Assembly: GCF_900115585.1 (NCBI RefSeq)
Contig: NZ_FOWZ01000001.1
Coordinates: 889,461-953,460, forward strand
Length of the DNA stretch: 64,000 bases
Origin: Qipengyuania nanhaisediminis
GTDB taxonomy: Bacteria; Pseudomonadota; Alphaproteobacteria; Sphingomonadales; Sphingomonadaceae
Direction of reading: 5' to 3'
The notes under the pieces were generated by a model. That model made no database searches. It saw only the letters and a program-made list of their open reading frames with translations, and was not told the DNA's origin. Every line of letters starts with the position of its first letter. Positions within the stretch are counted from its first letter, which is position 1. Of the stretch, positions 20,789 to 36,915 are shown piece by piece. Position numbers and translations under genes: made by a program.

Positions 20789-20949
20789 GTCACGAGAGGA
20801 TATGGGAAGTTCCCGCCGACGAACAAGCCTCGCCCCGCGTCCGTCCCCCGTTTTCTGGTCCGAAAGGACTTGGCAAGCCTGACGCACACGGCTAATGGCC
20901 CCCTCGCTTCGACCGAGGCCCGAGGGCCCATCAGGCACACCCGACATGC

Positions 20950-21039
20950 GGAGAGGTGGCAGAGAGGTCGAATGCGCCGCACTCGAAATGCGGTATACGG
21001 GCAACCGTATCGTGGGTTCGAATCCCACCCTCTCCGCCA
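20950..21039 (+). tRNA. tRNA-Ser (anticodon CGA), integration target
   Basis: The 90-nt sequence has acceptor GGAGAGG/CCTCTCC, anticodon loop CTCGAAA in a CCGCA/TGCGG stem (anticodon CGA, reading UCG), a long variable arm (TATACGG…CCGTAT), T-loop GGTTCGAATCC and an encoded CCA. Its last 17 bases (21023-21039) are repeated at 36899-36915, so the island integrated into this gene's 3' end and left it intact. Confidence 0.97.
21023..21039 (+). repeat. attL (17-bp tRNA 3'-end direct repeat)
   Basis: TCCCACCCTCTCCGCCA, the T-arm and acceptor end of tRNA-Ser(CGA), identical to 36899-36915. The sequences on either side diverge immediately (CGAA versus AGTT upstream; CGTC versus GTCA downstream). Confidence 0.92.
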
Positions 21040-21064
21040 CGTCGCCCCCAACCCCTTGAATTCG

Positions 21065-21078
21065 TGAAACGCGTTGCA
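21065..21078. repeat. Palindrome copy 1 (TGAAACGCGTTGCA)
   Basis: It matches TGCAACGCGTTGCA at 13 of 14 positions. It lies between attL and the integrase gene. Perfect copies flank the serine recombinase gene at 25027-25040 and 25860-25873. Possibly a binding site for a recombinase or island regulator. Confidence 0.6.
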
Positions 21079-21134
21079 AATCAGCGGATTTGATGCATAA
21101 ATCTGCTACAGATCTTGCTACAAAGTGATGCGGA

Positions 21135-22727
21135 ATGTCGACGGCCAAAAGAGTGGATGGACACCGCTATTTTTACTCGCGGGGCGGCAGGTTTATTTTC
21201 CGGAGAAGCGTACCTAAGGACGCCACTGATGCCTTCGGCAAGACCGAGGTCGTCACTACGCTGAAGGCGCAAACTAAATCGGCGGCACTGATCGAGTTGG
21301 CCGAACATGTCGCTGAATTTGAGAGAACGCTAATCCGAGCGAGAACGCAGCAGGCTCATGCCGAACTCTCTGCTGATATCGGCAGGGAGGTTTTGGAGCG
21401 AGCGGTGCGTAGTTGGTTTGCAGAGAGACAAGGTCGTTTCCAAGAAGAGTTGCTGCGCGCGCGCTCTAACGAGGACCGAAAGGCTCGCTTGCTTGAGCTT
21501 GATGCCTATGAAGGGACCGCTCGGGAGGTAGTGCGGGGGGAGCAAGGCAACAACTTGATAGCGAGGTGGATTTCCCAAGCGATTTGCGAGCGTGAAGGAT
21601 GGGAATTTGAGCCTGGCTCGTTCCAGTCCCGGCAGTTGATGCAAATTGTCGCGCGAGGACAACTTGAAGCGTCACGACGAGAACGCGAAGATCTTGAGGG
21701 GCTGCCCCGAAGCTCCGGTGACATCACCTTCTCACCCGAGGCATACGATCATGATAACACAATTCGAAGGTCAAATGATCGCGAGACCCGATTAACTCTG
21801 TTGTTTGAGGCCTACGTCGCCGAGCGGCGCCCAGCGGCCTCTACCGTCAAATCATTTAGGCAAAAGATCGCGTCTTTCGTGGCATTTCTGGGTCACGATA
21901 ATGCGGAAAACGTCACTCCAGCCGACATAGTCGCATGGAAGAATGAGTTGTTGGGCCGAGGCAACGGAAAGGGTTCAACCCTCTCGGCGAAAACCGTCAA
22001 CGATACGTATCTTTCAATCATAAGAACTGTCTTCAACTGGGGTTATGAAAACGAGAAGGTTGGAGCCAATCCGGCTAGTCGCGTGAAGGTGCGAGCCCCT
22101 CGAAAAATCAGCACACGATCAAAGGCGCTCAACGATCACGAGGCAAAATCTATCCTCCGAGCCTCGCTACGTTCTCCGGCAAGGAAGTTGTCTACCGAGA
22201 GGGCCTTCGCCCAACGCTGGGTGCCATGGCTCTGCGCTTACACTGGCGCACGTGTGAACGAGATAACGCAACTGCGTGCGGAAGATTTCACTGAGATTGA
22301 TGGGGTCAAAGTTCTCGAAATTACCCCGGAAGCCGGCAGCGTAAAGAACTATGAAGCTCGCGTCGTTCCCATCCATCCTCATCTGATTGAGCAAGGATTG
22401 TGGGACGAGGTCCGAAGAAAGACTGGCCCCCTCTTCTATGACCCTTCGAGGCATCGCGGAGGCTCAGAGGGTAATCCGCAATCGAAGAAGGTCGGGGAAC
22501 ATCTCGCAAGATGGGTGCGTGGCCTCGGGGTTGATCATCCAGAAGTTCAGCCGAACCACGGCTGGAGACATAGGTTCAAGTCCGTGGCACGGAATGTCGC
22601 AATGTCGCCGGAAATTCGGGATGCCATTCAAGGTCACGCACCGAGAACGGAGGGCGAGGCTTACGGTGATATTTCACCCCAGGCCATGTTCAGAGAGATC
22701 AGCAAATTGCCCAGATACGACGTGTAG
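21135..22727 (+). CDS. Tyrosine recombinase (island integrase)
   Basis: 530 residues. The N-terminus ('YFYSRGGRFIFRRSVPKDATDAFG') resembles the DUF6538-type arm-binding region of long alphaproteobacterial integrases, followed by a core-binding SAM-like domain (about 210-300, 'AASTVKSFRQKIASFVAFLG'). The catalytic domain has Arg373 in 'YTGARVNEITQLRAEDF', His475 and Arg478 in 'HGWRHRF', 'IQGHAPR', and the nucleophile Tyr510 in 'GEAYGD'. It would integrate and excise the island at the tRNA. Transcribed away from attL. About 60 bp downstream a short perfect hairpin (GCCCTT/AAGGGC, 22791-22806) and a (CG)-rich palindrome (22753-22766) lie in the 204-bp gap to the next gene. Confidence 0.95.
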   Translation: MSTAKRVDGHRYFYSRGGRFIFRRSVPKDATDAFGKTEVVTTLKAQTKSAALIELAEHVAEFERTLIRARTQQAHAELSADIGREVLERAVRSWFAERQGRFQEELLRARSNEDRKARLLELDAYEGTAREVVRGEQGNNLIARWISQAICEREGWEFEPGSFQSRQLMQIVARGQLEASRREREDLEGLPRSSGDITFSPEAYDHDNTIRRSNDRETRLTLLFEAYVAERRPAASTVKSFRQKIASFVAFLGHDNAENVTPADIVAWKNELLGRGNGKGSTLSAKTVNDTYLSIIRTVFNWGYENEKVGANPASRVKVRAPRKISTRSKALNDHEAKSILRASLRSPARKLSTERAFAQRWVPWLCAYTGARVNEITQLRAEDFTEIDGVKVLEITPEAGSVKNYEARVVPIHPHLIEQGLWDEVRRKTGPLFYDPSRHRGGSEGNPQSKKVGEHLARWVRGLGVDHPEVQPNHGWRHRFKSVARNVAMSPEIRDAIQGHAPRTEGEAYGDISPQAMFREISKLPRYDV

Positions 22728-22931
22728 GGTGCTTTCCCTCATCGGTCTCGCGCACGCGCGCGCGTGAGGGTTCAGAATTGGCACGAAACGGCCCTTTTCT
22801 AAGGGCTCACTGCAGTTGAGCTGGTAGCAGAAGGGGTAAAATGCGCGGAAGCGAAGGTGTTACGGCAGGTAAATATTTATGACATAACATAATGTTTTTG
22901 CTAATATATTTCCAGACCTTGAGGCGGAAAT

Positions 22932-23549
22932 ATGAACGAATATCGCAAGCGCGTAAAAAAGTTGGAAGAGATCGGGCGCATCAGGCTGTCGCGAAATTTC
23001 TGGTTGCGGGAATTCCTGCATTCCGAGATCGCAGCGGTGCACGGCATCACTAACAAACCCGATGACCTCGAACTTGCGGTCGCGGCAGGTAGTCGGCTGT
23101 GTAAAGAGCTATTGGAGCCGTTGCATCAAACATTTGGCTCGGTGCGCATTCGGTCCGGATACCGTTCGTGGGAATTGAACGCGCTAGGTCACCGTCTGGG
23201 TCTTGGATGTGCCAGCAACGAGAAAAACCGTGCTGCGCACATTTGGGACCGGAGAGATGTGGAGGGTCGCATGGGAGCGACCGCCTGCATAGTCATCCCG
23301 TGGTTTGCTGATTATCTAGAAGGCGGCGGTGACTGGCGCGCGATGGCGTCATGGCTCTACGACCACATTCCGTTCGCGTCCGTCACATTCTTCCAACGGC
23401 TTGGTGCATTCAACCTTCAATGGCGGGAAGAGCCTGAACGGACAGTTCGAAGCTGGAGGCAGCCGAAGGGCAAACTGGTCTTAGGAGACAGCCTTTACCC
23501 TTCATCGGTCAGGAAGGCCTACTCGCAGTTTCCACCCTTCTGCGGTTAG
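22932..23549 (+). CDS. Peptidase M15A-like protein
   Basis: 205 residues. 'NFWLREFLHSEIAAVHGITNKP' (here in parts) and 'IRSGYRSWELN' (75-83) match the start and core of M15A zinc D-Ala-D-Ala carboxypeptidase-like domains. Candidate zinc ligands are His103 and Asp106 or Asp109 in 'AAHIWDRRD', and His145 in 'YDHIP'. The usual S-x-H-x(6)-D spacing is one residue short and its Ser is Ala, so activity is uncertain. No signal peptide, so it is probably cytosolic unless released by lysis. The start ATG follows GGCGGAAAT. It converges on the RT gene with a 4-bp overlap of stops, implying a conserved unit; role unknown. Confidence 0.7.
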   Translation: MNEYRKRVKKLEEIGRIRLSRNFWLREFLHSEIAAVHGITNKPDDLELAVAAGSRLCKELLEPLHQTFGSVRIRSGYRSWELNALGHRLGLGCASNEKNRAAHIWDRRDVEGRMGATACIVIPWFADYLEGGGDWRAMASWLYDHIPFASVTFFQRLGAFNLQWREEPERTVRSWRQPKGKLVLGDSLYPSSVRKAYSQFPPFCG

Positions 23550-24790
23550 CGCCCAAAGGAAGGCCGGTGGAACGTGGGGAGGCCCATCCGTCTTATGAGA
23601 TCGAAATCAATTAAGCGGGCGTAGTCCACGCCCTCAACTTCGTCTGCAGCTTTATGGAGGCGCAGCTCCAGTTGCGTGTGCCAGTCATCAATCTCGCGGA
23701 AACCAGAAAAGCGATCGCGAATGACCGCCTCTGCGTCGCGCAAGCATTCATAGCCCTTTGCGATGTCGTCTTGCACAGCGGTGTCGATCGCGTCTTCCAT
23801 ATCCGACCAAGCCCGATGGCTCATCTGAACCGAGATGTTCTGGCTCTGCGTGCTGATGAAATAAGAGAGGAAATCAAATCCTTCTTCTGGCTCTACGCAT
23901 CCAGGATGATCGCGCAGATCGAATGGACCTGCAGGGTGCTCCGCGAAATAGTCGCGGCATAAGGCGATAATTGCCGAGAGCGTCTGACCATCCTGCGCCG
24001 CTAGAAACAGGTTGTCCCCGTAAAGAGCTGCGTGGCAATCGTGGGGCGCGATATGCGCGGCCAAGCTGTTAAACAGTGTAGCCAGAATGATGCTGGACGA
24101 AGGCAAACCTTGCAGCAGTCCCTGAGGTCCATTCCACCTGCGTGCTTCCGGTCCATGAGAGTATACACAAGAGTGCGATACTCCCTGTTCCCGGAACGTG
24201 AGATTGCGATAGTCGAGACAGTTCCCGATTACCAACCTCGGCAAGGGAAGCAGGTCGTATAGGCTGTTGATCGAAACGGACTGATAGCAGTCTCGAACGT
24301 CCCCAATGAAACAGTGGCTATAGCCCGCTTCCAGTGCTTCTTTGATGGCGATAATCGCGTAATCGCGACCACGCCCCCTAATATCATAAATGTGATGTCC
24401 TGGCTGAAGCCGCGCTTCCAAAACATCCTTGATCAGATAAGAACAGGCGGCGAGAGATGGCGGTGGCGAACATATGGGGCGACGCCCCCAACCAGAGCTT
24501 TTCGCCCGCCATTCAAACCGAACCTCACCGGCATTGACTTCGAAGGGATTGGTCTGTGCAGTGAGGAGTGTCACCGCCTCATCACTGGCTTGAGCAGGAA
24601 GGGCGCGCATTGCTGCCCAAGCGCGCAGATCGTCTTTGTTCAGGTATGCAATCGTTCTGCGGTAAAGACGAGAAAGCCGACCTGCGTCCGTCAGGCTTCG
24701 AAGCTCTTGCTGGAGCAATTTTGCTTTACGCGAGAGACGGCTGATCTCGCGGCGGCGTGCCAAGGTGTGAGGGTCAGGAGGAAGTACCAC
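23546..24790 (-). CDS. Reverse transcriptase with YGDN active-site box
   Basis: 414 residues from GTG 24790. RT motifs are in order: 'RRPICSPPPSLAACSYLIKDVLEARL' (motifs 1-2), 'FIGDVRDCYQSV' with catalytic Asp164 (motif A), 'GPQGLLQGLPSSSII' with Gln227-Gly228 (motif B), 'ALYGDNLFL' at 257-260 (motif C), and 'GFDFLSYFIS' (motif D region). Motif C is YGDN rather than YADD, so the second catalytic Asp is Asn. No maturase, endonuclease or nitrilase domain is fused; the C-terminal 100 residues are helical and unassigned. The family could be a defence-type (UG/DRT-like) or retron-like RT, not resolvable by eye. GTG is forced by an in-frame TGA directly before it. Lower GC and accessory context indicate transfer. 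Confidence 0.85.
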   Translation of the reverse strand: MVLPPDPHTLARRREISRLSRKAKLLQQELRSLTDAGRLSRLYRRTIAYLNKDDLRAWAAMRALPAQASDEAVTLLTAQTNPFEVNAGEVRFEWRAKSSGWGRRPICSPPPSLAACSYLIKDVLEARLQPGHHIYDIRGRGRDYAIIAIKEALEAGYSHCFIGDVRDCYQSVSINSLYDLLPLPRLVIGNCLDYRNLTFREQGVSHSCVYSHGPEARRWNGPQGLLQGLPSSSIILATLFNSLAAHIAPHDCHAALYGDNLFLAAQDGQTLSAIIALCRDYFAEHPAGPFDLRDHPGCVEPEEGFDFLSYFISTQSQNISVQMSHRAWSDMEDAIDTAVQDDIAKGYECLRDAEAVIRDRFSGFREIDDWHTQLELRLHKAADEVEGVDYARLIDFDLIRRMGLPTFHRPSFGR

Positions 24791-24817
24791 TCACTGAAAA
24801 TTGGGGGTCGCAAATGA

Positions 24818-24887
24818 TTCGTCAATAAAAACATTTTGCAACTGGTGCAACTGAATGAAATACGAGAAAACATTCTTAATTGACGAA
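24818..24887 (-). ncRNA. Candidate structured RNA in the RT leader
   Basis: TTCGTCAAT (minus 24887-24879) and ATTGACGAA (24826-24818) form a perfect 9-bp stem closing a 52-base interior. That interior holds nested repeats CATT/AATG and TTGCA/TGCAA (24836-24850). It ends 28 bases before the RT start codon on the RT strand. Another hairpin (GAAGGC/GCCTTC) lies further up at 24985-25007. The whole 24.80-25.21 kb gap is AT-rich and lacks a credible protein gene. Retrons and several DRT systems need a neighbouring non-coding RNA, so this is a reasonable candidate, not a demonstrated one. Confidence 0.4.
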
Positions 24888-25026
24888 GCTTTTGATTTAT
24901 CACACTCCAATTTTTCATTCATAGAGAGGCGATTTTTCAGATTATTTCCCGGCAGGCGGCGCCCCATCGCGCAGTTGAAATATGGAAGGCGGCGATGAGC
25001 GGCCTTCACCGGGGTTCTAGGATTTA

Positions 25027-25040
25027 TGCAACGCGTTGCA
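25027..25040. repeat. Palindrome copy 2 (TGCAACGCGTTGCA)
   Basis: Perfect 14-bp palindrome 177 bp before the serine recombinase start, followed after 5 bases by CGACGTGGC (25046-25054). The mirrored arrangement occurs downstream of the gene. Confidence 0.65.
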
Positions 25041-25124
25041 CTTATCGACGTGGCGCCAGGCGGAAGTTTACCGTGATCATGGCGGCGGCATCGGTATCAT
25101 AAGTTGTAAGTTTTGAAGGGCGTA

Positions 25125-25170
25125 GCAATTCATGCCTGGCCTGCATCAAAAGATATAAATTGCCTTTTTT
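25125..25170 (+). terminator. Terminator-like hairpin upstream of the serine recombinase
   Basis: GCAATT (25125-25130) pairs with AATTGC (25158-25163), enclosing an inner ATGC/GCAT stem (25132-25146), and is followed by CTTTTTT. On the plus strand no annotated gene ends here, so it may end a small RNA from the RT leader region or insulate the recombinase. TTTTGAAG recurs at 25111, 25167 and 25197 around it. Confidence 0.5.
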
Positions 25171-25217
25171 GAAGATGCCTCTAAAATAGTGGTATGTTTT
25201 GAAGCGGAGCAGTCGGA

Positions 25218-25811
25218 ATGAGCCGCATTGCGTATTTTCGAGTTTCTACAGGCGGGCAGAGCATCGAAGGGCAGCGCGAAGCGCTGACTGGGCCGTTCGA
25301 CCGCGAGTTTGTTGACGAAGGGGTTGGTGGTGGGACTCTGGCTGCTTCCCGACCTGGGTTCTCACAATTGCTGTCTTACATCCGCGAGGGAGATACTCTT
25401 TGTGTGTTTGCTCTTGATAGGCTGGGGCGAGATGCGCTCGATGTACAGACGACGGTTCGAGAGTTACTCCAGCAAGGCGTTACGATTGAAGTGAGAGGGC
25501 TGGGTCAAATCGGCAAAGGAGTGGGAGAACTAATTGTCGCGGTGCTCGCGCAAATTGCCGACATGGAGCGTGAACGAATTCGAGAGCGCTGTGAGGCCGG
25601 CCGTGCTGCTGCGCGGAAGTCCATCCGTGAAACAGGCAAGACGCACAGAGGTAAGTCTAGTCTAGGGCGACCCCTCGCAGGCAACCCAGCCGAAGTTAGG
25701 CAATGGCGGATAGATACTGGCGCTTCCATTCGGCAAACAATGGAAAAATTTAGCCTCTCCAAGTCAACGGTTGAGCGGTATTGTTCGTCCGGGAGCACCA
25801 AAAGACCTTAG
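25218..25811 (+). CDS. Serine recombinase (resolvase/invertase family)
   Basis: 197 residues. The catalytic domain opens 'RIAYFRVSTGGQSIEGQREAL', with the nucleophile Ser in RVST, then 'FALDRLGRDALDVQ' (the LDRLGR signature) and 'IADMERERIRERCEAGRAAA' (dimer helix E). A short C-terminal helix-turn-helix (about 160-190, 'SIRQTMEKFSLSKSTVERY') completes a DNA-invertase-like protein. Such enzymes resolve or invert DNA between paired sites. The gene is flanked by symmetrical palindrome-plus-CGACGTGGC modules, plausible sites of action. Start supported by GAAGCGGAG upstream. Confidence 0.93.
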   Translation: MSRIAYFRVSTGGQSIEGQREALTGPFDREFVDEGVGGGTLAASRPGFSQLLSYIREGDTLCVFALDRLGRDALDVQTTVRELLQQGVTIEVRGLGQIGKGVGELIVAVLAQIADMERERIRERCEAGRAAARKSIRETGKTHRGKSSLGRPLAGNPAEVRQWRIDTGASIRQTMEKFSLSKSTVERYCSSGSTKRP

Positions 25812-25859
25812 GTGCGGAGCTTGCTTCGCTGCTCTCTGCGTATAACGACGTGGCAATGC

Positions 25860-25873
25860 TGCAACGCGTTGCA
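25860..25873. repeat. Palindrome copy 3 (TGCAACGCGTTGCA)
   Basis: Perfect copy 48 bp after the serine recombinase stop, preceded after 5 bases by CGACGTGGC (25846-25854). With copy 2 it brackets the recombinase in mirror order. The gap from here to hsdM (25874-26014) shows no gene. Confidence 0.65.
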
Positions 25874-26014
25874 CCGAGGTCGGACTTTCACACCCCCGCT
25901 CTTGCGTAGGCCGTATCCCTCTCCTTGGGTTACGCACAAATTCAGATTACCAAATCAGTGACATAGCCAGAGATCAGCGTCACTAGGTCGTCCGATTGCG
26001 GATTGGGGAAGCTT

Positions 26015-28264
26015 GTGCTTACAGAACGACACAAAGAAATTGCGGGGACAATCTGGGAAATCGCCAATCGGTTGCGCGGGCCCTATCGTCCCCCTCAATA
26101 CCGCTTGGTCATGCTGCCAATGGTTGTGCTCCGGCGCTTCGATTGCGTTCTTGAGCCAACCAAAGACGCCGTTGTCGCCGAGTACAAGCGATTGCTCGCG
26201 GCAAACACGCCCGAGCGCGCCATCCCCCGGCTGCTTACCAAGATCGTCGACCCCAACCGCACGCAACCGCTCTACAACACGAGCGCCTTCACCTTTGAAA
26301 AGCTGTTGGGCGACAGCGAGAACATCGCGCCCAACCTCGTTTCCTACATCAACGGCTTTTCGCCCACTGCCCAGCGCATCTTCGAGAAGTTCAAGTTCAG
26401 CGAGCAGATTGAGAAGCTCGACGCGAGCAACCGCCTTTACAACATCGTCAAGGCAATGGCCGATCCCAAAGTCGATCTACATCCTGACCGGATCAGCAAC
26501 ATCGAAATGGGCTACATCTTTGAGCACCTTGTCATGCGCTTCAATGAACAGGCGAATGAGGAGGCCGGGGATCACTTCACGCCGCGCGAGGTAATCCGCC
26601 TGATGACCAGCCTCGTCTACACCGGCGAGAAGGATGTCTACAAACCGGGCGTTTATCGGGAAATTTATGATCCTGCCTGCGGGACGGGCGGGATGCTCTC
26701 AATTTCTGAGGAAATGATCCTAGCGGGCAACGAGCGCGCAAAGCTGGGCCTCTTCGGTCAGGAATATAACGATGAAAGTTGGGCAATATGCTGCTCGGAT
26801 ATGCTCATCAAGGACGAGGAGACCGACAACATCAAGCTCGGCGATACGCTGGGTGACGGGAAGACGTTCGACGGATTTCCGGAAAAGAAGTTCCATTACA
26901 TGCTCGCCAACCCGCCTTTCGGCGTGGAGTGGAAAGATCAGAAGGATGTGGTTGAGAAGGAGCACAAGGATTGGGGCTTTTCGGGACGGTTCGGAGCGGG
27001 TCTTCCCGCGATCAATGACGGGTCGTTCCTGTTCCTCCAGCACATGATTTCCAAGATGCACCCCCATGCTGGGGGGGATGACAACCAGCCGGGATCGAAG
27101 ATCGCCGTAATTTTCAACGGCTCGCCACTATTCAGCGGCGATGCTGGCTCCGGCCCGTCGAATATCCGGCGCTGGATCATCGAAAACGACTGGCTCGATG
27201 CGATTGTCGCGCTGCCCGATCAGCTTTTCTACAACACCGGCATTTTTACCTACATTTGGCTCGTCACGAACCGGAAAGCGCTAGAGCGGCGCGGCAAGGT
27301 GCAGTTGATCGATGGCACCCGTTTCTTCGACAAGATGAAGAAGAGCCTCAACAACAAGCGCAACGAATTGAGCGAAGAGCACATCCGCCACCTGACCGAA
27401 ATCTACGGCAGGTTTGAGGATGGCGAGGAAGCCAAGGTCTGCATCGATGAAAAGAAGGACGTTTGGGAAAAGCGCGTAGTCAGCCGCATCTTCGACAATC
27501 ACGAGTTCGGCTTCCTCAAGGTCGTGGTTGAGCGACCGCTTCGGCTCAATCTGGAAGCCTCGCCAGAGCGGATCGCCCGGCTGGATGAGCAGACAGCCTT
27601 CGCCAATCTCTCGGTATCCAAGAAGCGCAAGGATGCCGCCCTGATCGAAAAGGAAGAGGCGGCTGGCCGGGAGCAACAGGAGGCCGTTCGTGCCGTCCTG
27701 AAAGCGCTCGAAGGCAAAGGGCGCTACATGGACCGCGCGGATTTCGATGCCGATCTGGCGGTGGCTGCCAAGCGGGCCGGTGTGAAATTGTCCGCACCCA
27801 TCAAGAAAGCGATCATCGCTGCGCTGGGCGAACGCGATCCGAAGGCGGAGATTTGTCGGGACAGCAAGGGAAGGCCAGAGCCAGACAGCGAACTCAGGGA
27901 TACAGAGAATATCCCGCTGCCCGCCTATGCGCGTCTTCCTGACGCCTTCGCTGAGAAGGTCGCACAATCCGCCAATGCCGCGCATAGCGGGGTGAAGCTG
28001 CCGATCTTCTTCGGCCCAGACCGCCCCAATGAAGACCTGGTCAAAGCCATGCGCGGCACCATCGATGCCTATATGGCTGTGGAGGTCTTGCCGCATGTGG
28101 ACGATGCTTGGGTGGACTACACTAAGACCAAGGTCGGTTACGAAATTCCCATCAACCGGCACTTTTACGTCTACCAGCCGCCGCGCCCGATAGATGATAT
28201 TGAGCGAGAAATTTCGGATTTAGAGGGTGAAATCGCGTCGCTGCTCAAAGGGTTGGTGGCGTGA
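26015..28264 (+). CDS. hsdM: Type I restriction-modification DNA methyltransferase subunit
   Basis: 749 residues from GTG 26015, with GGGGA 6-10 bp upstream; the TTG at 26005 region is an unlikely start. An N-terminal helical HsdM_N region ('IAGTIWEIANRLRGPYRPPQYR', in parts) leads to the N6-adenine methylase domain with motif I 'DPACGTGGM' (D219) and motif IV 'NPPFG' (N299). A long C-terminal extension (about 480-749) includes a coiled, charged segment. It transfers methyl groups from SAM to adenine at the site chosen by HsdS and is required for restriction. It overlaps hsdS by 4 bp. The operon contains two extra genes before hsdR. Confidence 0.97.
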   Translation: MLTERHKEIAGTIWEIANRLRGPYRPPQYRLVMLPMVVLRRFDCVLEPTKDAVVAEYKRLLAANTPERAIPRLLTKIVDPNRTQPLYNTSAFTFEKLLGDSENIAPNLVSYINGFSPTAQRIFEKFKFSEQIEKLDASNRLYNIVKAMADPKVDLHPDRISNIEMGYIFEHLVMRFNEQANEEAGDHFTPREVIRLMTSLVYTGEKDVYKPGVYREIYDPACGTGGMLSISEEMILAGNERAKLGLFGQEYNDESWAICCSDMLIKDEETDNIKLGDTLGDGKTFDGFPEKKFHYMLANPPFGVEWKDQKDVVEKEHKDWGFSGRFGAGLPAINDGSFLFLQHMISKMHPHAGGDDNQPGSKIAVIFNGSPLFSGDAGSGPSNIRRWIIENDWLDAIVALPDQLFYNTGIFTYIWLVTNRKALERRGKVQLIDGTRFFDKMKKSLNNKRNELSEEHIRHLTEIYGRFEDGEEAKVCIDEKKDVWEKRVVSRIFDNHEFGFLKVVVERPLRLNLEASPERIARLDEQTAFANLSVSKKRKDAALIEKEEAAGREQQEAVRAVLKALEGKGRYMDRADFDADLAVAAKRAGVKLSAPIKKAIIAALGERDPKAEICRDSKGRPEPDSELRDTENIPLPAYARLPDAFAEKVAQSANAAHSGVKLPIFFGPDRPNEDLVKAMRGTIDAYMAVEVLPHVDDAWVDYTKTKVGYEIPINRHFYVYQPPRPIDDIEREISDLEGEIASLLKGLVA

Positions 28265-29511
28265 GCTATTTCCAGAGAAGCGAAGAACTGCCGGAATGGG
28301 TTGGTTCTCCGCCTAGAGATTGGAAGACCGACTGGCTCAAGTGGAACGTCCAGCGGTTAGCGCTGCGGCCTACTGAAGATGAAGTCGAAACACTGCCCTA
28401 TATTTCAAATGAGGATATTTCCTCATGGACCGGCAAGCTCTTGGTGGACGATCCTCAACCCACGGAGGCGGACAGCCGCAAGTTTTGGAATGACGATGTC
28501 TTGTTCAACAAACTTCGGCCCTACCTCGCCAAGGTCTATCTTGCCGATTTTGATGGCCTCAGTTCAGGTGAATTGCTTTGCCTTCGAGGCGGTTCTTCCG
28601 TTGATCCCAAATTCTTGTTCTATGTGCTTAGCTCAAAAGCATTTGTCGATGCTGTGAACGCTGAGACGTTTGGATCGAAGATGCCCCGCGCAGATTGGGA
28701 AATTGTTGGGCACCAGCCGCTACCACTCCCGCCGCTCGATACTCAGAAGCGCATTACCAAGTTCCTCGATCAAAAGACCGCTCAAATCGATGCTCTGATC
28801 GAGAAGAAGCAGGCTCTATTGGAGCGGCTCGCCGAGAAGCGTCAGGCGGTAATCACGCAGGCCGTCACCAAGGGCTTGAACCCTGATGCGCCAATGAAAG
28901 ACAGCGGCATCAAATGGTTCGGCCAAATCCCCGCACATTGGGAGGTTAAACGGCTCAATGGCTTTTGCGACTTTCAATCCGGCAAGGCTCATGAGCCGTT
29001 CATCGATCCAGATGGGGCCTTTGTTTGTGTGAATGCCCGCTTTATCTCTACCGATGGACAAGCGGTTAAGATGTGCTCTGAAAACCTCTGTCCGGCCAAG
29101 CTCGGCGACATTTTAATGGTCATGAGCGATCTTCCAAACGGACGTGCATTGGCCCGCTCATTTCTCGTCGACGAGAAAGCAGAGTATGCTGTTAATCAAC
29201 GAGTTTGCCGCATCCGCCCACACACTGGAAACTCCACTTACCTCTCGCATCAACTGAACAGGAATTTGCAGCTTCTCGCGCACAATGACGGTAAAGAGCA
29301 GACGCACTTATCCAATTCGGCATTTCTTCACCTGAAGTTGCTTTTCCCTCCACCAGACGAGCAAGCCGAGATAGCGGAAGCGGTTACCAACTTTGAAGCT
29401 AGTGCTCGAGTTTCTGAGCAAGCTATCGAACGATCGGGAACGCTCCTTCAAGAATATAGGGCAACCCTGATCACAGCAGCAGTCACTGGGCAAATTGAGG
29501 GGCTTCAGTGA
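28261..29511 (+). CDS. hsdS: Type I restriction-modification specificity subunit
   Basis: 416 residues with the classic two-part layout. The first target-recognition domain covers about 10-165, and a conserved helical spacer ('LDQKTAQIDALIEKKQALLERLAEKRQAVITQAVTKGL', seen in pieces) about 165-205. The second TRD is about 215-375, with a second helix at the end ('EQAIERSGTLLQEYRATLITAAVTGQI'). The S subunit dictates the bipartite DNA target of the M2S and R2M2S complexes. It starts with GTG overlapping hsdM and ends overlapping the next gene by 4 bp, showing tight coupling. The recognition sequence cannot be predicted here. Confidence 0.96.
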   Translation: MSYFQRSEELPEWVGSPPRDWKTDWLKWNVQRLALRPTEDEVETLPYISNEDISSWTGKLLVDDPQPTEADSRKFWNDDVLFNKLRPYLAKVYLADFDGLSSGELLCLRGGSSVDPKFLFYVLSSKAFVDAVNAETFGSKMPRADWEIVGHQPLPLPPLDTQKRITKFLDQKTAQIDALIEKKQALLERLAEKRQAVITQAVTKGLNPDAPMKDSGIKWFGQIPAHWEVKRLNGFCDFQSGKAHEPFIDPDGAFVCVNARFISTDGQAVKMCSENLCPAKLGDILMVMSDLPNGRALARSFLVDEKAEYAVNQRVCRIRPHTGNSTYLSHQLNRNLQLLAHNDGKEQTHLSNSAFLHLKLLFPPPDEQAEIAEAVTNFEASARVSEQAIERSGTLLQEYRATLITAAVTGQIEGLQ

Positions 29512-30122
29512 CAATATCGGCGAGCGCCTACTTCAATCACCTCCTGGCCTACCTCAACGACGAGTATGTCGTCTCTGATGGGTCAGAGGGGAAAGTCGTT
29601 CTGGAGGAGGAATATTTCGCTCCGGAAGGCACAAAGCCTCTGACAAGGGTTGTTGAGTTGGCCCTCCCATCGCAGGGCATCGGCTTCAAACTGGATCAAA
29701 GCGACTTCGAAGCATCCACCAAGAAGCGGGCTAAACCGGCCCTTTTCCATTTCCTCGATGACAACGCCAAGCCATGGTCGAGGCGCTGCGATTTCGTGGT
29801 GTTTTGGCGGAATGGCAACGCGCTTCGTGCCGACCTGATCGAGTTCAAATCCAAGGGTATCCAGCACGACAAGATCGTTCCCCAGTTGAACGCTGGTTTG
29901 TGCTGGTGCCGCAGCCTCAAGCATACAATCGAGCATTACACCGGCTACAAGAAGAAGATCGTGGCTCGGAAATTTGTCTTTAGCTCCAATCAGGAACCGG
30001 AAGCCTTCCTCGATGCGAACCGGCAATTGAACGCCGATGTCTCGGTGCGCTTCTACCATTATGACGAACTGGCGAGCATGCAGATCGGTGATCTGCAAAA
30101 CCAATCGGAGGTTGTGGTCTAG
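29508..30122 (+). CDS. Uncharacterised protein within the type I R-M operon, possible PD-(D/E)XK fold
   Basis: 204 residues, start GTG overlapping hsdS by 4 bp. I do not recognise a named family. A pattern compatible with a PD-(D/E)XK nuclease core is visible: Asp95 in 'RRCDFVVFW', then after 16 residues Glu112-x-Lys114 in 'DLIEFKSKG', on alternating hydrophobic strands. Later parts ('CWCRSLKHTIEHY', 'KKIVARKFVFSSNQEPEAF') look like a continuation of an alpha/beta fold. If real, it would be a nuclease or nuclease-like sensor. Insertion of such a gene between hsdS and hsdR is not part of standard type I systems. It precedes the next gene by 3 bp. Confidence 0.6.
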   Translation: MTISASAYFNHLLAYLNDEYVVSDGSEGKVVLEEEYFAPEGTKPLTRVVELALPSQGIGFKLDQSDFEASTKKRAKPALFHFLDDNAKPWSRRCDFVVFWRNGNALRADLIEFKSKGIQHDKIVPQLNAGLCWCRSLKHTIEHYTGYKKKIVARKFVFSSNQEPEAFLDANRQLNADVSVRFYHYDELASMQIGDLQNQSEVVV

Positions 30123-30125
30123 GCT

Positions 30126-30977
30126 ATGAGTTCGCGCGCCGATCCGTTCACCCTGCCCGAGTGGCATGCGCTCCGGCGCGAAGCTTCACTCGTCAGCCAA
30201 GTCATTGGGGCCGGGGCGACGGCACTCGGTAGGGCGAGCTACGGAAAGAGCTTCGGTGAATATTATACCGCCTTCTTCGGCCTATCGATCGGCATCGAGC
30301 GGCTGGCAAAGCTCATTCTGGTCGCCGACCACATCATCGAACACCAAGGTGCTCTACCTGATGCGCAGACGGTGAAAGCCTTCGGTCACCGCTTGGAACA
30401 CCTAATCAAGAAGTCGGGAGACATCGCTGAGAAGCGTGGGATTGCCAATCCACACCTCTCTCCTTCCGATCCAATCTGTGCCGCCGTAATCGATTGCCTG
30501 GACAGCTTCGCAGCGGCATCGAAGGGACGCTATGCGAACTTCGAGACGATCGGAAATCCGAACTTTGATCCGTCAAACGAACCAGTCAACAAATGGTGGG
30601 AGAAGGTGGTCGAGCCGATCCTCGACAAGCATTATCGTGGAAGACAGGCGGAGCACCGTGTTCGGCATCGCGCGAGGGTCGTCGGTAAATTGTTGTCCGA
30701 CGTATCGACAATTCTGTTCTTTGATGAGAACGGCAATCAGATGACCGATCTGCAAGTGGCCTCAGAACGCTCGGGTCAAACCAAATGGGCGCAGGAATAC
30801 GGTCGCTTTTATGCTCTCGCAGTTGTCCGCTGGTTGTCGCACATCTTCATCGAATTGGTGCATTCGGCTGGATATGGCGATGAAACGCCTTGCCTTTTTG
30901 GCCACCACGAATTTTTCTATAGTTACAAAGTAGATGACAAGACTTTGCGCACGCGTAAGGTTTGGCCGCTAAGTTAG
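30126..30977 (+). CDS. Uncharacterised helical protein within the type I R-M operon, possibly HEPN-like
   Basis: 283 residues, ATG 3 bp after the previous stop, and 8 bp before hsdR. Mostly helical by composition. Residues about 45-105 ('YYTAFFGLSIGIERLAKLIL' then 'VKAFGHRLEHLIKKS') show the Glu58…Lys62 and His88/His92 spacing reminiscent of HEPN four-helix proteins such as AbiV. I do not see a convincing RX4-6H catalytic motif, so this is a loose resemblance. HEPN proteins are often RNases or partner subunits in defence systems. With the preceding gene it forms a two-gene insert in an R-M operon. Confidence 0.55.
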   Translation: MSSRADPFTLPEWHALRREASLVSQVIGAGATALGRASYGKSFGEYYTAFFGLSIGIERLAKLILVADHIIEHQGALPDAQTVKAFGHRLEHLIKKSGDIAEKRGIANPHLSPSDPICAAVIDCLDSFAAASKGRYANFETIGNPNFDPSNEPVNKWWEKVVEPILDKHYRGRQAEHRVRHRARVVGKLLSDVSTILFFDENGNQMTDLQVASERSGQTKWAQEYGRFYALAVVRWLSHIFIELVHSAGYGDETPCLFGHHEFFYSYKVDDKTLRTRKVWPLS

Positions 30978-30985
30978 GGGGCGTC

Positions 30986-33900
30986 GTGGCGGGGCATACC
31001 GAATATCACTACGAAACCGCGATTGAGGAGAGCCTCGTCCCCAAACGCGGCTACAAAAAGCTTGCCCCCTCGGAATTTGATCCGGCAACCGCGTTGTTCC
31101 CGAGTGAGGTAATTGCCTTCATCCAAGAGAGCCAACCCACCCGCTGGGAACAGCTTGAGGCGATGCTTAAAGATCGCACCGAAGCGACCGTCATCGACAG
31201 CCTGACCAAGGAGCTTGCCAGCAAGGGCGCGCTCGGTGTGCTGCGCCACGGCTTCAAATGCTACGGCAAGGAATTGCGCCTCGCCTACTTCCAGCCGAAC
31301 AGCGGCATGAACCCCGAAGCGGCCAAGCGATACGACGCCAACCGCCTGCGGATCATCCGGCAGGTCGAGTTTGTCTCGGACGTTTTGAAGCACCCCGATG
31401 GCAAGAAGCGCAAATGCATCCTCGATGTGGTCATCGCGCTCAACGGGCTTCCGGTGGCAACCGCTGAACTGAAGAACCAACTGACCGGCCAACGTGCCGA
31501 GGATGCGTGTAAGCAATACATGCGGGATCGCGATGGCCGCGACCCGATCTTCCGCTTCAAGGAACGGTCACTCGTCCATTTCGCGGTCGATCCGGACGAA
31601 GTCTGGATGACCACCAAACTGCAAGGCTCGGAGACTTTCTTCCTTCCCTTCAACAAGGGCCACGATTTCGGCGCAGGCAATCCGCCCGTCGCCGGACAAT
31701 GGAAGACCCACTATTTGTGGGACGAAGTGCTTGAGCGCGATAGCCTGTTGGACATCCTCCAGCGGTTCATTCACTTGGAAGTGAGCGAGCGGCGGGTTCC
31801 GACACCGACGGGCCAGAAGGTCGTGCGCAAGGAGACAATGATCTTCCCGCGCTACCACCAGCTAGACGCAGTGAGGAAGCTCATCTCCCACGCGAAGGCG
31901 AAGGGCTCGGGCCACAACTACCTTGTGCAGCACTCTGCCGGTTCGGGGAAATCAAACAGCATTGCCTGGCTGGCCCACCGGCTTGCAAGCCTCCACGATG
32001 CGAAGGACGAAAAGGTATTTCATTCGGTGGTGGTCATCACCGACCGGCGCGTTCTCGATCAGCAGCTTCAGGACACGATCTACCAATTCGAGCACAAGAC
32101 TGGCGTGGTCGAGAAGATCGACGAGAACACCCAGCAGCTTGCCAAAGCCTTGGCCAATGGCACACCGATCATCATTTCGACGATCCAGAAATTTCCGTTC
32201 ATCTCGCAGGCGATAAGAACGCTGGAGAAGAAGGGCGAGGGCGTCTCGATTGAGACCAAGGATCGCCGGTTTGCGGTGATCGTCGATGAGGCTCACAGTT
32301 CCCAGTCGGGTGAAACCATCGCTGCGCTCAAGGGCATTCTCAACAAGGATGGCATTGCCGACGCAATCGCTGGTCAGGTGGGGGATGAAGAGGACGATGA
32401 CCTGACCGAGGATGCGAAGAAGCGCATCAAGCAGGAAATGATGCAGAGGGCCAAACAGCCCAATCTCAGCTTTTTTGCCTTTACCGCCACTCCGAAGTTT
32501 AAAACCAAGGCCGTCTTTGATGAGCCGGGTCCGTCCGGCGCTTCACCGTTCCACGAGTATTCGATGCGGCAGGCAATCGAGGAGGGCTTCATCCTCGATG
32601 TCCTGAAGAACTACACGACCTACAAGCGCTTCTTCGGACTGGTGAAACAGATCGAGGATGACCCTGAGGTTCCCAAGAAAGCCGCGGCAAAGGCTCTTGG
32701 ACAATTCCTAGAACTGCATCCCGTCAATGTTGAGCAGGTCGTCACGGTAATCATCGAGCACTTCCGGCTAAAGGTCATGCATGAGCTTGGGGGACGCGCC
32801 AAAGCCATGGTTGTGACAGGCTCTCGGCTGGCTGCCGTGCGCTACAAGCTCGCCTTCGACAAATACATCAAAGAGAAGGGATATGAGGGCATCCGGGCAC
32901 TGGTAGCTTTCTCCGGTTCCGTCGAAGATGAGGAATTGCCCGGTGGTTCGTTCACCGAAGTCGGAATGAATGATGGCCTGCCAGAGCGCGAGTTGCCGGA
33001 GAAATTCTCAGGCGACGAATACCGCGTGCTCATTGTTGCTGACAAATACCAGACAGGTTTCGACCAGCCGCTCTTGCAGACCATGTATGTGGTCAAGAAG
33101 CTCGCGGGCGTGCAGGCGGTTCAAACCCTTTCGCGCCTGAACAGGATCGCTCCCGCTGTGGGCAAGACGAGGGTCTTTGTGCTCGACTTCCGGAACGAGG
33201 AAGAAGAGATTTTTGACGCTTTCAAACCTTACTACGAAGCAACTCCCGTCGCCGAAGAAGTCGATCCGCAGAAGCTCAATGAGCTACATCATCGCTTGCT
33301 CGAAAAGGCCATCTTCACGAGCGCCGATGTCAGCGAGTTTGCTGCCGTATGGTTCAAGTCGCGCAGGCAACATGGGGGGCAAGATCACAAGATCATGAAC
33401 TCCGTTCTCGACCGAGTGGTGGAGCGGTTCAAGGAAAAGGAAGAACCGGAACAGGAAGAATTCCGAGGCCACTTGTCTGCCTTCAAGAACCTCTACGCCT
33501 TCCTGTCCCAAATCATGCCCTATCACGATGCTGAGTTGGAGCAGCTTTACGCATTCACGCGCAACTTGGCCCTCAAGCTGCCTCGCGTCGGTGATGGCAC
33601 CAAGTACACGCTCGACGATGATGTCGCGCTCAAGTTCTTCCGGCTTCAGCAAATGAGCGAAGGGTCAATCGACCTCCAAGACGGAGAGGCCCAGCCGCTC
33701 AAAGGCCCTTCGGATATTGGGACGGCGGGGGCCAAAGACACAGATGTTGCGTTGTCGTCGCTCGTGGAAAGATTGAACGAACGCTTCGGAACGGATTTCA
33801 ATGAGGCAGATCAGTTGTTCTTCGATCAGGTGAGGGCAACAGCCGAGCTAGACGAGAATGTCGTTGAAGCCGCCCGTGCCAACAGTCTGCCCAATTTTTC

Positions 33901-34075
33901 AAACTACTTCGGCAAGGTGATCGACGATCTCTTCATTCAAAGAATGGATGGCAACGACGAAATTTTTCACCGTGTCATGAGCGACAAGCAGTTCCGGAAG
34001 GCAGCCCAAGAGCACCTGGCCAAAGAGATATTTGACCGCATTAACGGACAGGATGGCAATCCCCGTCCTGATTGA
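30986..34075 (+). CDS. hsdR: Type I restriction endonuclease subunit R
   Basis: 1029 residues from GTG 30986 (GGGGG 4-8 bp before); the TTG at 30962 would overlap the preceding gene. The N-terminal nuclease domain contains 'KCILDVVIALNGLPVATAELKNQLTG' with the ExK-type 'ELKNQ'. The SF2 motor has Walker A 'HSAGSGKS' (316-323), DEAH box 'VDEAHSSQ' (434-437), 'FTATP', and motif VI region 'QTLSRLNRIAP'. The subunit translocates DNA with ATP and cuts unmethylated DNA away from the site. All catalytic motifs appear intact, so restriction is likely active. It ends 52 bp before the DUF4268 gene. Confidence 0.97.
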   Translation: MAGHTEYHYETAIEESLVPKRGYKKLAPSEFDPATALFPSEVIAFIQESQPTRWEQLEAMLKDRTEATVIDSLTKELASKGALGVLRHGFKCYGKELRLAYFQPNSGMNPEAAKRYDANRLRIIRQVEFVSDVLKHPDGKKRKCILDVVIALNGLPVATAELKNQLTGQRAEDACKQYMRDRDGRDPIFRFKERSLVHFAVDPDEVWMTTKLQGSETFFLPFNKGHDFGAGNPPVAGQWKTHYLWDEVLERDSLLDILQRFIHLEVSERRVPTPTGQKVVRKETMIFPRYHQLDAVRKLISHAKAKGSGHNYLVQHSAGSGKSNSIAWLAHRLASLHDAKDEKVFHSVVVITDRRVLDQQLQDTIYQFEHKTGVVEKIDENTQQLAKALANGTPIIISTIQKFPFISQAIRTLEKKGEGVSIETKDRRFAVIVDEAHSSQSGETIAALKGILNKDGIADAIAGQVGDEEDDDLTEDAKKRIKQEMMQRAKQPNLSFFAFTATPKFKTKAVFDEPGPSGASPFHEYSMRQAIEEGFILDVLKNYTTYKRFFGLVKQIEDDPEVPKKAAAKALGQFLELHPVNVEQVVTVIIEHFRLKVMHELGGRAKAMVVTGSRLAAVRYKLAFDKYIKEKGYEGIRALVAFSGSVEDEELPGGSFTEVGMNDGLPERELPEKFSGDEYRVLIVADKYQTGFDQPLLQTMYVVKKLAGVQAVQTLSRLNRIAPAVGKTRVFVLDFRNEEEEIFDAFKPYYEATPVAEEVDPQKLNELHHRLLEKAIFTSADVSEFAAVWFKSRRQHGGQDHKIMNSVLDRVVERFKEKEEPEQEEFRGHLSAFKNLYAFLSQIMPYHDAELEQLYAFTRNLALKLPRVGDGTKYTLDDDVALKFFRLQQMSEGSIDLQDGEAQPLKGPSDIGTAGAKDTDVALSSLVERLNERFGTDFNEADQLFFDQVRATAELDENVVEAARANSLPNFSNYFGKVIDDLFIQRMDGNDEIFHRVMSDKQFRKAAQEHLAKEIFDRINGQDGNPRPD

Positions 34076-34127
34076 ACGGCACTTGGTTCGGACTGCGCAG
34101 AGCGAAGGTTGATTGGAGTAATACAGA

Positions 34128-35264
34128 ATGTTTCAGGTTGATCGCTCCCAAAACCGGCTCAAGCAACTGGGCCGCACGACATTCACAGAAGCAGGGCTGA
34201 GGGAGCGGGAGCACCTGCAAGAATGGTTGGCGACGACACCGGGCGCGCTCGGAGAGGCAATCGGCGAAGAACTTCTCATAATCCAGAAGGAGTTCGATGG
34301 GTTTGATGGCACTCGCGAGCGTTTGGATTTGCTCGCATTGGATCGCAGTGGGCAATTAGTTGTCATTGAAAATAAGCTAGATGACTCAGGCCGCGATGTC
34401 GTCTGGCAAGCACTGAAATATGCTGCCTATTGCTCCAGTCTCAAGAAGGCCGAGATCATCACGATCTTCCAGCAATATCTCGACCGGGGAGAAGGTGGGG
34501 ATGCTGCCTCCAGCATATGCGAGTTCCTGCAAGAGGACGCGCTTGACGAGGTTGTTCTCAACGAAGGGAACGACCAACGAATTGTCTTCATCTCGGCCAA
34601 TTTCCGTCGTGAGGTCACCGCAACGGTCTTATGGCTGCGAGAGCACCAGATTGACGCCCGTTGCGTGAAGGTGCTGCCATACCTCTTCGGTGAAGACCTC
34701 TTTATCGACTTACAGCAGGTCATCCCTACGCCTGAGGCAGCGGATTACATGATCCGCATGGCGGAGAAGGACACCGAGGAAAAGTCCGCGAAGGGCGCGC
34801 AGCGGTGGAGCCACCAGATGCGCTATGCCTTCTGGGAAGAAGTCCTCGAAGCTTTTCGCGAGGCGGGGCTTGAGCGGTGGCAAAACATTTCGCCCTCGCG
34901 TGACCACTGGCTGACTTCGAGCATTGGCGTGTCAGGTTGCATCTTGGTATTGATCTTCCTTCGGCAGGAAATTCGGGTTGAATTGCAACTCAACCGATCC
35001 GAAGCCAGCGAGAACAAGTGGCTGTTCGATCAACTCGCCAAGGACAGCGAGGAGTTGGCCGGAAAAGTTGGGGCAGAACTTGAGTGGCGGAGGCTGGACG
35101 ACAAGAAGGTGAGCATCATCCAGTGCAAGCTGCCGGTCCAAGGCTACAGCAAGGAGAATTGGCCTGAGATGATCGAATGGCTGAAGCAGCACTACAAGCG
35201 AATGGATGCTGCATTCTCTGAGCGCGTTGCTTCGCTGGCCGGTCAGATGAAATCGGGTGGTTAG
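34128..35264 (+). CDS. DUF4268-domain protein with PD-(D/E)XK-like N-terminus
   Basis: 378 residues. The N-terminal half has a clear nuclease-type core: 'RERLDLLALDRSGQLVVIENKLDD' gives Asp67, Glu81 and Lys83 (D-x13-E-x-K), as in RecB/NucS-like proteins. The C-terminal half (about 235-365, 'FWEEVLEAFREAG', 'WLKQHYKRMDAAF') matches DUF4268, a domain repeatedly found beside restriction genes. Function unknown; a DNA-end or modified-DNA-related role is plausible. Good GGAG Shine-Dalgarno 11 bases before ATG. Follows hsdR by 52 bp on the same strand and precedes the broken HNH gene by 6 bp, so likely part of one defence operon. Confidence 0.8.
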   Translation: MFQVDRSQNRLKQLGRTTFTEAGLREREHLQEWLATTPGALGEAIGEELLIIQKEFDGFDGTRERLDLLALDRSGQLVVIENKLDDSGRDVVWQALKYAAYCSSLKKAEIITIFQQYLDRGEGGDAASSICEFLQEDALDEVVLNEGNDQRIVFISANFRREVTATVLWLREHQIDARCVKVLPYLFGEDLFIDLQQVIPTPEAADYMIRMAEKDTEEKSAKGAQRWSHQMRYAFWEEVLEAFREAGLERWQNISPSRDHWLTSSIGVSGCILVLIFLRQEIRVELQLNRSEASENKWLFDQLAKDSEELAGKVGAELEWRRLDDKKVSIIQCKLPVQGYSKENWPEMIEWLKQHYKRMDAAFSERVASLAGQMKSGG

Positions 35265-35270
35265 GATCGC

Positions 35271-36131
35271 ATGAAGGTTCTCGACGAGATAAAGCCGTCC
35301 AAGAAGCACCTCGTTTATGATCTGGTCGAGAGCGCCGGTTTGGATATGGCAGACTGGATTGCGAGTTCGAATGATCGTCGTGGCCCGAAGGCCAACCCAA
35401 AATATTGCTACGATTGGTGATTCGTGCAGCCGAAGCAGGTTGTGATCCTAAACCTATGGCATCCAGCGATGGTTGTCGAAGACGGGCAGATTGTCGAGCG
35501 AGGCAATTTCCGCGCGGATGCGGAGAGCCACCGAGGGCCGGGCGGTAAAGCCAAATGGTATGAGCGCGCAAAGAAGCTTGATGATGCGCTTCAAGAAGCC
35601 CTTAGAGACAATCTACCGGTCCGCGTAATCATCAATGACGGAAATCGGCGAAAACCTGGCGACCCAAAAGCCAAGGCTTCGGTAGTGCTCAAACGGGAGC
35701 TTGATCCTGAGCCCTGGACCATTGCCGAATATGACTGGAACACTGGAGCGCATGTTCTCAAGCGTGGCATCTTGCCTACACGTTTTGTCGATCAGTTCGA
35801 CATTGAGCAATCAGAAAAGGCCGATCCGAAGAAGCGCGATCAGCGCGGTAGCGTGTTTGTTCGAGACCCACGAGTACGGAGTATCGTTAAAGAGCGCTCA
35901 CAGGGCAGGTGTGAGTATTGTGGCGAACTAGGCTTCAAAATGGTTAGCGGAGCAACCTATCTTGAAACACATCACGTTGTTCCGCTTTCTGAGGGTGGGG
36001 CGGACACTGTCTTCAACGTGGTTGCGCTATGCCCAGTGGATCATCGTAAGGCGCACTATAGCCACGACCACATTAAGCTCCGTGAAGAATTGTTAAAAGT
36101 GTTAGAACAACTAGAGCCTAGCCAACCATAG
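35271..36131 (+). pseudogene. HNH endonuclease gene interrupted by an in-frame TGA
   Basis: ATG 35271 opens a 49-codon frame ending 'NPKYCYDW' at TGA 35418-35420. The same frame then continues without loss for 236 codons ('FVQPKQVVILNLWHPAMV…') to TAG/TAA at 36131. The join matches the family pattern in which 'CY-x-W' runs directly into 'F-V', so one codon (probably Ser, Ala or Trp) has become TGA. The C-terminus has an HNH domain: 'CEYCGELGFK' (zinc pair), 'ETHHVVPLSEGG' (HH catalytic) and 'NVVALCPVDHRKAHYSH'. A GTG at 35424 could allow re-initiation of the C-terminal part. So it is either a pseudogene, a readthrough case or a sequencing error. Confidence 0.75.
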
Positions 36132-36147
36132 CGACGGGAGGAGTTGG

Positions 36148-36896: not shown

Positions 36897-36898
36897 TT

Positions 36899-36915
36899 TC
36901 CCACCCTCTCCGCCA
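36899..36915 (+). repeat. attR (17-bp direct repeat)
   Basis: Identical to the 3' end of tRNA-Ser(CGA) at 21023-21039. The chromosome resumes immediately afterwards, and the first chromosomal gene is the AraC regulator 94 bp on. Confidence 0.92.

Follow-up and report, generated by a model that had tools for sequence, protein, structure and literature searches.

A Reverse Transcriptase with YGDN in Motif C on a tRNA-Borne Island, and the Clade to Which It Belongs

Introduction

The aspartate at the second acidic place of motif C (YxDD) is called invariant among reverse transcriptases (RTs) in the passages cited here of PMC3394715. What, then, is to be made of a bacterial RT gene in which an asparagine stands there? 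The gene in question lies in Qipengyuania nanhaisediminis, in what is called the window below, that is, the whole stretch of 64,000 nucleotides that was analysed (contig NZ_FOWZ01000001.1, positions 889,461 to 953,460). A sequence-only reading had taken it for a possibly functional variant, had compared its motif to that of viral RNA polymerases and had placed it in a defence-gene island. Here we ask whether the asparagine is an accident of one gene, to which RT group the protein belongs, and what such an enzyme might do on its island.

The RT Gene and Its Active Site

The RT gene occupies 23546-24790 on the minus strand and encodes 414 amino acids, as supported by the open reading frame (ORF) list, by a match to Pfam RVT_1 and by a homologue in Croceicoccus ponticola (locus L001). 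Its start codon is GTG, with an in-frame TGA immediately upstream, and in the blastn alignment the Croceicoccus homologue has ATG at the matching position. Counted from the GTG at 24790, with position 257 taken from the alignment, motif C reads Tyr257-Gly258-Asp259-Asn260 (codons at 24011-24022, minus strand). In alignments with other RTs, Asp164 (codon at 24299-24301, minus strand; invariant there) falls in motif A, Gln227-Gly228 in motif B and Asp259 in motif C. The palm motifs are thus present with the catalytic aspartate of A and the first of C; the second aspartate of motif C is absent, and Asn260 is found instead. The motifs agree with the sequence-only reading, which had listed an RT at 23546-24790 with its motifs in order, Asp164, QG and a Tyr-Gly-Asp-Asn at 257-260 in which the first Asp is kept and the second is Asn. 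Its further remark that no accessory domain is fused holds at the sensitivity of a Pfam search at E 0.1, because RVT_1 is the sole match there (residues 149-285, E 2.5e-5, at 24.5 bits below the RVT_1 gathering score of 29.6 bits). Neither an endonuclease nor a maturase part was detected in the protein, and the AlphaFold model for the window and L001 (pLDDT 32.5, pTM 0.19) was not usable.

Conservation of the Asparagine

The RT of C. ponticola was the one relative returned by a contig pattern scan, which detects close relatives only. It is 73% identical to the window RT (295 of 405 aligned residues), has YGDN too and keeps an intact frame. With dN at 0.177 and dS at 0.789 (NG86), the comparison shows that the pair is under purifying selection, and conservation peaks at residues 181-300, motifs B to D, where 27-28 of the 30 residues in each block are the same. 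A profile built from four RTs was then run against 397 genomes of the window's family and matched in 28 of them; motif C ended in DN in at least 12 of the 397 (12 of the 28 matched, the genome of the window included), these RT counts being lower bounds since at most four candidates were scored per genome. YGDN was seen in the window and in G894 (taken as the Croceicoccus homologue again), YCDN in L044 and L045, YSDN in L047, L052 and L057, WSDN in L051, L055, L056 and L059, and YADN in L054; a phylum-wide search added HCDN in the RT of L109. The asparagine is common to the 73% homologue and 11 further RTs, one of which (L056) is a near copy of another. Both AAC and AAT are used as its codon among the 11 genes checked, and it is retained in relatives down to 25-29% identity. 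Relatives with YxDD occur inside the same clade.

Might the asparagine nonetheless be private to one gene that is decaying? By eye, three of the 12 DN genes do look broken: that of L052 ends prematurely beside an IS transposase-like gene, that of L057 is split across two frames and that of L059 is interrupted. Against decay stand the purifying selection, the frames intact in both the window and L001, and an asparagine shared down to that same distant level of identity; the Croceicoccus comparison had by itself contradicted such a reading, which we consider very improbable. The sequence-only reading had named YADD homologues of a decaying gene as the finding that would speak against it, and the outcome was the opposite, the nearest homologue found having YGDN. 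A conserved variant rather than a dying gene is supported by that homologue, the intact frames, the low dN/dS and the DN of distant relatives.

The Clade and the Known RT Groups

A tree of 41 RTs was built with the motif C columns removed. Eighteen of its rows, 11 with DN and 7 with DD, were set apart from the rest by a branch supported at 100/98, and the tree with known RT groups that the sequence-only reading had envisaged puts the window RT within these 18 rows and outside the group II rows. The RTs of the window, L001, L044, L045 and L047, all DN, join L053, which has YADD (support 99/97). A single Asn clade was rejected with all rows present (AU p 0.0096) and was not rejected once six rows, mostly long-branched, were dropped (AU p 0.11), the Asn group in both tests being defined by a motif whose columns are absent from the tree data. 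Every row of the clade (18 of 18) has Asp where the window RT has Asp164 and Asp259, and Tyr or Phe at the place of the steric gate (Asp164+5; Tyr169 in the window). The motif B Gln is kept in 13 of the rows and replaced in the other five, by Glu (three), Thr and Leu, and Asn is the only substitute of the second motif C Asp. Arg directly before motif C, present in 19 of the other 23 tree rows, is seen in none of the 18, and the residues that follow motif C in the clade are mostly AGPF or near it.

The clade probably represents a so far unnamed RT family. Scored with the group II, DRT, UG and retron models tried, it stayed below member level throughout. Group II RT/maturases are alike in that PDB 6me0 is the best-matching solved RT for the family profile (E 1.2e-35), with palm motifs that align in the same order; they differ in that the window RT reaches 10.9 bits with TIGR04416, whose cut-off is 300, has DN in motif C and falls outside their tree rows. 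An Rfam scan of 20900-37000 at E up to 0.5 gave no group II intron family, and no RT-associated RNA family, msr-msd included. Like the RTs of UG/DRT systems, the window RT is a lone RT in a defence island, and it weakly matches UG4 (20.5 bits) and UG26 (18.1 bits) in PADLOC; the better of these is its best UG/DRT score, whereas true members in the same search reached 436 (DRT2), 452 (UG17) and 517 bits (DRT9). Among 16 other tree rows scanned with PADLOC, NCBIfam or both (L109 left out) none exceeded 67 bits, and the PHROGs maximum was 74 bits, for L004 against a broad RT family. The DRT2, UG17 and DRT9 loci of this search also differ in having no serine recombinase in the stretch examined. 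A tyrosine recombinase adjoins two of three DRT10 (UG17) systems, and its deletion left immunity unaffected, according to the portion of PMC12632851 cited.

Retrons resemble the window RT as small island-borne RTs with a possible structured leader, but their VTG and NAxxH motifs, as defined in the cited part of PMC4244168, are both absent from its translation. This is weak evidence alone, because the same text gives VTG for just 47% and NAxxH for just 59% of retron RTs; no retron-type PADLOC model matched the window RT at E 0.1. The (I/V/L)GxxxSQ of diversity-generating retroelements (as excerpted from PMC4244168) differs from the QGLPSSS of the window RT. A CRISPR RT model was matched weakly (18.8 bits, E 3.6e-4), and Pfam and PADLOC found no cas genes among the eight RT neighbours scanned.

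A class-wide profile search found five genomes besides that of the window, two of which were L003 and L004 again. No relative was found in viral contigs with two alignments as query, in plasmids and phages with the window RT as query, or in plasmids with L044 and L055 as queries; with L003 as query, plasmids gave one match, of 22.7%, in Yersinia, annotated as ltrA.

The Home Island and Related Loci

The RT gene sits on an island of ~15.9 kb, ~21023-36915, which is bounded by the end of a tRNA-Ser(CGA) gene (20950-21039, plus strand), its insertion site, and a copy of that end. The 17-bp direct repeats are found at 21023-21039 and, as the copy of the tRNA-Ser 3' end, at 36899-36915 (both plus strand). 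Between them lie, all on the plus strand, a tyrosine integrase of 530 aa with a DUF6538 start (21135-22727, Pfam), an M15-like gene, a small serine recombinase (resolvase) of 197 aa that is divergent from the RT (25218-25811, PF00239 E 6.4e-28) and, as cargo recognized by Pfam and PADLOC, the type I methyltransferase HsdM (26003-28264), the specificity subunit HsdS (28261-29511) and an HsdR-like restriction subunit (30962-34075), besides the RT itself and other genes. With the tRNA-Ser, the 17-bp repeat and the type I restriction genes between, the earlier placement of the RT in a defence-gene island is borne out.

Cargo of this kind was also seen at other family loci. Known or candidate defence genes were found in 10 of 11 RT stretches, the window included, with PADLOC applied to some neighbours picked by eye: type I genes in the window, L083 and L094, Septu in L072, the Gabija gene GajA in L092, IetS in L077, and a cytosine methylase and/or Vsr in L073, L076, L080 and L147. 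In L079, with one protein scanned, no defence gene was found. The HCDN RT, in another bacterial family, has a similar setting in the stretch L147, accompanied by an integrase and, 4.6 kb off, a recombinase (both by eye), and by Vsr and a methylase. Genes for a Vsr-type nuclease and a cytosine methylase recur in L073, L080, L140 and L147, identified by PADLOC for both in L073 and L147 and for the methylase of L080, and by eye for the remainder.

A serine recombinase gene lay at most 2.6 kb from the RT gene at 14 of 19 family loci (13 of them with a small recombinase), as opposed to none of 12 loci with other RTs (Fisher p 8.8e-5; stretches up to 17 kb), a limit of distance that was chosen after the distances were known. 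Without the near copy L077, and with L072, whose recombinase is large, scored as a miss, the association stood at 12 of 18 (p 3.3e-4). Small serine recombinases also occur at ~5.1 kb in L072 and L073, and a large one at 5.1 kb in the control L095; the control L060, a 3-kb contig, was excluded from the comparison. None was present in the examined stretches of L078, L082, L093 and L105, where L093 is a 7.5-kb contig and the RT of L078 stands at a contig end. The control RTs are mostly group II and DRT and were not selected for integrase islands, so the association may be with the RT or with the type of island, which the comparison cannot tell apart.

The loci L076 and L077, from different genera, have in common a stretch of 4.24 kb that is 98.1% identical and runs through integrase, a 155-aa protein, HTH, RT and recombinase, after which the genes differ. 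The recombinase of the window shares 83% identity with its counterpart in L076 and 28% with the one in the Croceicoccus stretch L081, the locus that has the close RT.

The M15-Like Neighbour

Between the integrase and the RT lies a gene for an M15-peptidase/endolysin-like protein of 205 aa (22932-23549, plus strand; phrog_894 endolysin, E 4.1e-7), convergent with the RT gene and sharing 4 bp with it. The protein has no Pfam match at E 0.1. In L001 a partner 69% identical to it adjoins the RT, and two blastn alignments, at 1101-2429 and 2531-3130 in reverse-complement coordinates, define a stretch of ~2.0 kb common to the window and L001 (22871-24900). Both genes are included in it, along with ~110 nt upstream of the RT and ~60 nt upstream of the M15-like gene, the flanks being unaligned. 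The integrases of the two islands are 28% identical over 256 residues and their recombinases 28% over 134.

A short stretch carried by two islands with differing integrases and recombinases, and the match of one of its products to an endolysin family, would suit a defence unit of two genes, with the peptidase as its lytic effector. Yet the M15-like gene was found at none of the 15 other family RT loci compared (L109 not among them), and a family RT was near it at none of 29 Sphingomonadales loci (1.5-kb flanks; best of the matches in 76 of 396 genomes) and none of its seven plasmid loci; moreover, convergent genes are not an operon. Such a unit seems to us quite improbable. Further matches to the M15-like protein came up in more than 30 Sphingomonadales places, with ~47-57% identity, and in 11 plasmid records from Sinorhizobium, Rhizobium, Pseudomonas, Aeromonas, Nostoc and others, with 41-56%.

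A Repeated Palindrome

Exact copies of a palindrome, TGCAACGCGTTGCA, flank the recombinase gene of the window on both sides, at 25027-25040 between RT and recombinase and at 25860-25873 between recombinase and hsdM, and a third form with one mismatch, TGAAACGCGTTGCA, precedes the integrase at 21065-21078 (all given on the plus strand). With up to two mismatches allowed these three matches were found, a number equalled in one of 100 shuffles. The genome of the window has just two exact copies of TGCAACGCGTTGCA, both beside the recombinase gene; an operator of a host regulator, which was considered, is unlikely because of this.

The site of a small serine recombinase would be a palindrome with a free central pair. 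The pattern TGCAACNNGTTGCA, in which the two middle bases are left free, was adopted after other loci were known; it occurs 26 times, in 14 of the 19 family loci (288 kb), as against no copy in the 12 control loci (180 kb), and 0.02 copies were expected from simulated sequence. In 13 genomes with a family RT (that of the window and 12 chosen, with G633, G609, G845, G909, G358, G238 and G1328 left out) 40 copies were counted, and none of the pattern read backward as a control; by hand count, 28 lie in RT islands, 10 in stretches of L140, L142 and L143, and 2 elsewhere. No exact palindrome was found in the RT loci of G633, G609, G845, G909 and G358. Across 21 relatives, the own genome included, eight have one or two copies and three have the control pattern once each.

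At L146, TGCAACNNGTTGCA sites stand at both ends of the RT gene, and several copies overlap predicted start codons of RT or recombinase ORFs. Two of the 28 island copies fall within hsdR, at one shared relative position, and may be a coding coincidence. A recombination site is one possible role of TGCAACNNGTTGCA, which we regard as a candidate; an operator of an island regulator is another. The palindrome was noted at 21065, 25027 and 25860 of the window and in L072-L077, L079-L081, L084, L085, L094, L105, L140, L142, L143 and L147, often at gene or module borders of islands in which an integrase and a serine recombinase are present, some carrying the RT and some lacking it. L140, L142 and L143 are of the latter kind: by eye they have integrase, serine recombinase and palindromes, and no family RT. 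Beside or near their recombinase genes a protein of 446-456 aa is encoded (L140 4610-5980, L142 15614-16954, L143 3527-4879), which has no Pfam match at E 0.01.

Possible Function

The reading we favour, though at slightly under even confidence, is that of an active, DNA-making RT of an unnamed family, with an active site like the ADN and GDN of viral polymerases, which serves in defence on islands that target tRNA genes. Asp164 and Asp259 would hold the two catalytic metals, and Asn260 would replace the second motif C Asp in the manner of birnavirus ADN and Mononegavirales GDN polymerases, probably slowing the enzyme and permitting the use of Mn2+; catalysis and metal use are thus proposed by analogy. 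Mononegavirales and birnaviruses carry Asn at that place of motif C, manganese use thereby being possible (excerpts of PMC4634563 and PMC3394715). The parallel to mononegavirus GDN drawn in the sequence-only reading is apt as chemistry, and the likeness ends there, the viral enzymes being RNA-dependent RNA polymerases. Since an aromatic residue, Tyr169, stands at the place of the steric gate, the predicted product would be DNA, not RNA. This DNA would most likely be used against phages or rival elements, as with other lone RTs of defence islands, a role suggested by the neighbouring genes and by what other lone bacterial RTs do.

Several observations count against an active enzyme, namely the motif B Gln missing in five of 18 rows, the three broken DN genes, the effects of substitutions in viral polymerases and AbiA D240N. 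In the cited portions, the birnavirus enzyme is more efficient once Asp is restored and mutation of the Asn abolishes activity in some Mononegavirales (PMC4634563), substitutions at that place of viral polymerases usually cut activity strongly or abolish it (PMC3394715), and AbiA with the engineered change D240N, at a conserved active-site Asp that the excerpt leaves unspecified, loses activity and defence (PMC11077055). A catalytically dead RT kept as a scaffold that binds RNA or DNA, its Asn a mark of relaxed selection on catalysis, would account for the lost Gln and for the variation in the second motif C Asp among clade rows (11 N, 7 D). It is harder to reconcile with the retention in every row of the Asp of motif A, the first Asp of motif C and the aromatic steric gate, with Asn as the sole replacement, and with the window and L001 being most conserved from motif B to motif D; we think it rather unlikely. 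The RT might instead belong to the machinery of the island, working with the serine recombinase and TGCAACNNGTTGCA in movement or cargo exchange, for example through synthesis of a DNA copy for capture at a TGCAACNNGTTGCA site. The recombinase counts and the 26 palindromes in family loci as opposed to none in controls point that way, as do the sites at both ends of the L146 RT gene, the 4.2-kb integrase-to-recombinase stretch of L076 and L077 with differing genes beyond, and the re-pairing of RT and recombinase, the window recombinase resembling that of L076 and its RT that of L081. Re-pairing, however, fits a passenger equally, some sites, those within hsdR, may be a coding coincidence, the controls were not chosen to sit on such islands and four family loci show no serine recombinase in the stretch examined; and because L140, L142 and L143 have integrase, recombinase and sites without a family RT, the recombinase may go with islands of this type rather than with the RT. 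A part in island machinery accordingly seems unlikely to us.

More speculative still, and improbable, is a combination in which GDN-type DNA-making RTs, with Asn in several branches, work together with the serine recombinase at TGCAACNNGTTGCA in an RT-assisted capture or exchange of defence genes on tRNA-borne islands. Among the matches listed in open-licence literature, none described DN in bacterial RTs, the RT-recombinase pairing or the palindrome. In a natural clade where this residue is Asn in certain branches and Asp in the rest, enzymes are already at hand for probing what it does and for asking whether metal use can change in RTs, as it does in some RNA polymerases. Its loci further indicate a class of integrative island that has its own repeated palindrome and trades known anti-phage systems.

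The RT Leader and Internal Repeats

An inverted repeat lies in the leader of the RT gene (24811-24894, minus strand), with arms at 24811-24829 and 24876-24894; its 9-bp core is also found in L001, where one base pair differs by a compensating change (L081 9050-9129). It is a putative structured leader or operator. A non-coding RNA leader was considered and set aside, because one compensating change between two sequences and folding z-scores of -1.2 and -0.8, which are not significant, do not suffice for it. A promoter scan gave one weak match, on the opposite strand. Within the RT coding sequence, an inverted repeat of 17-18 nt, conserved between the window and Croceicoccus, surrounds motif C (window 23913-24142, L081 8150-8379). 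Synonymous changes are fewer in RT codons 216-292 (14 of 72) than elsewhere (88 of 223; p 0.002), the region having been picked after the repeat was known.
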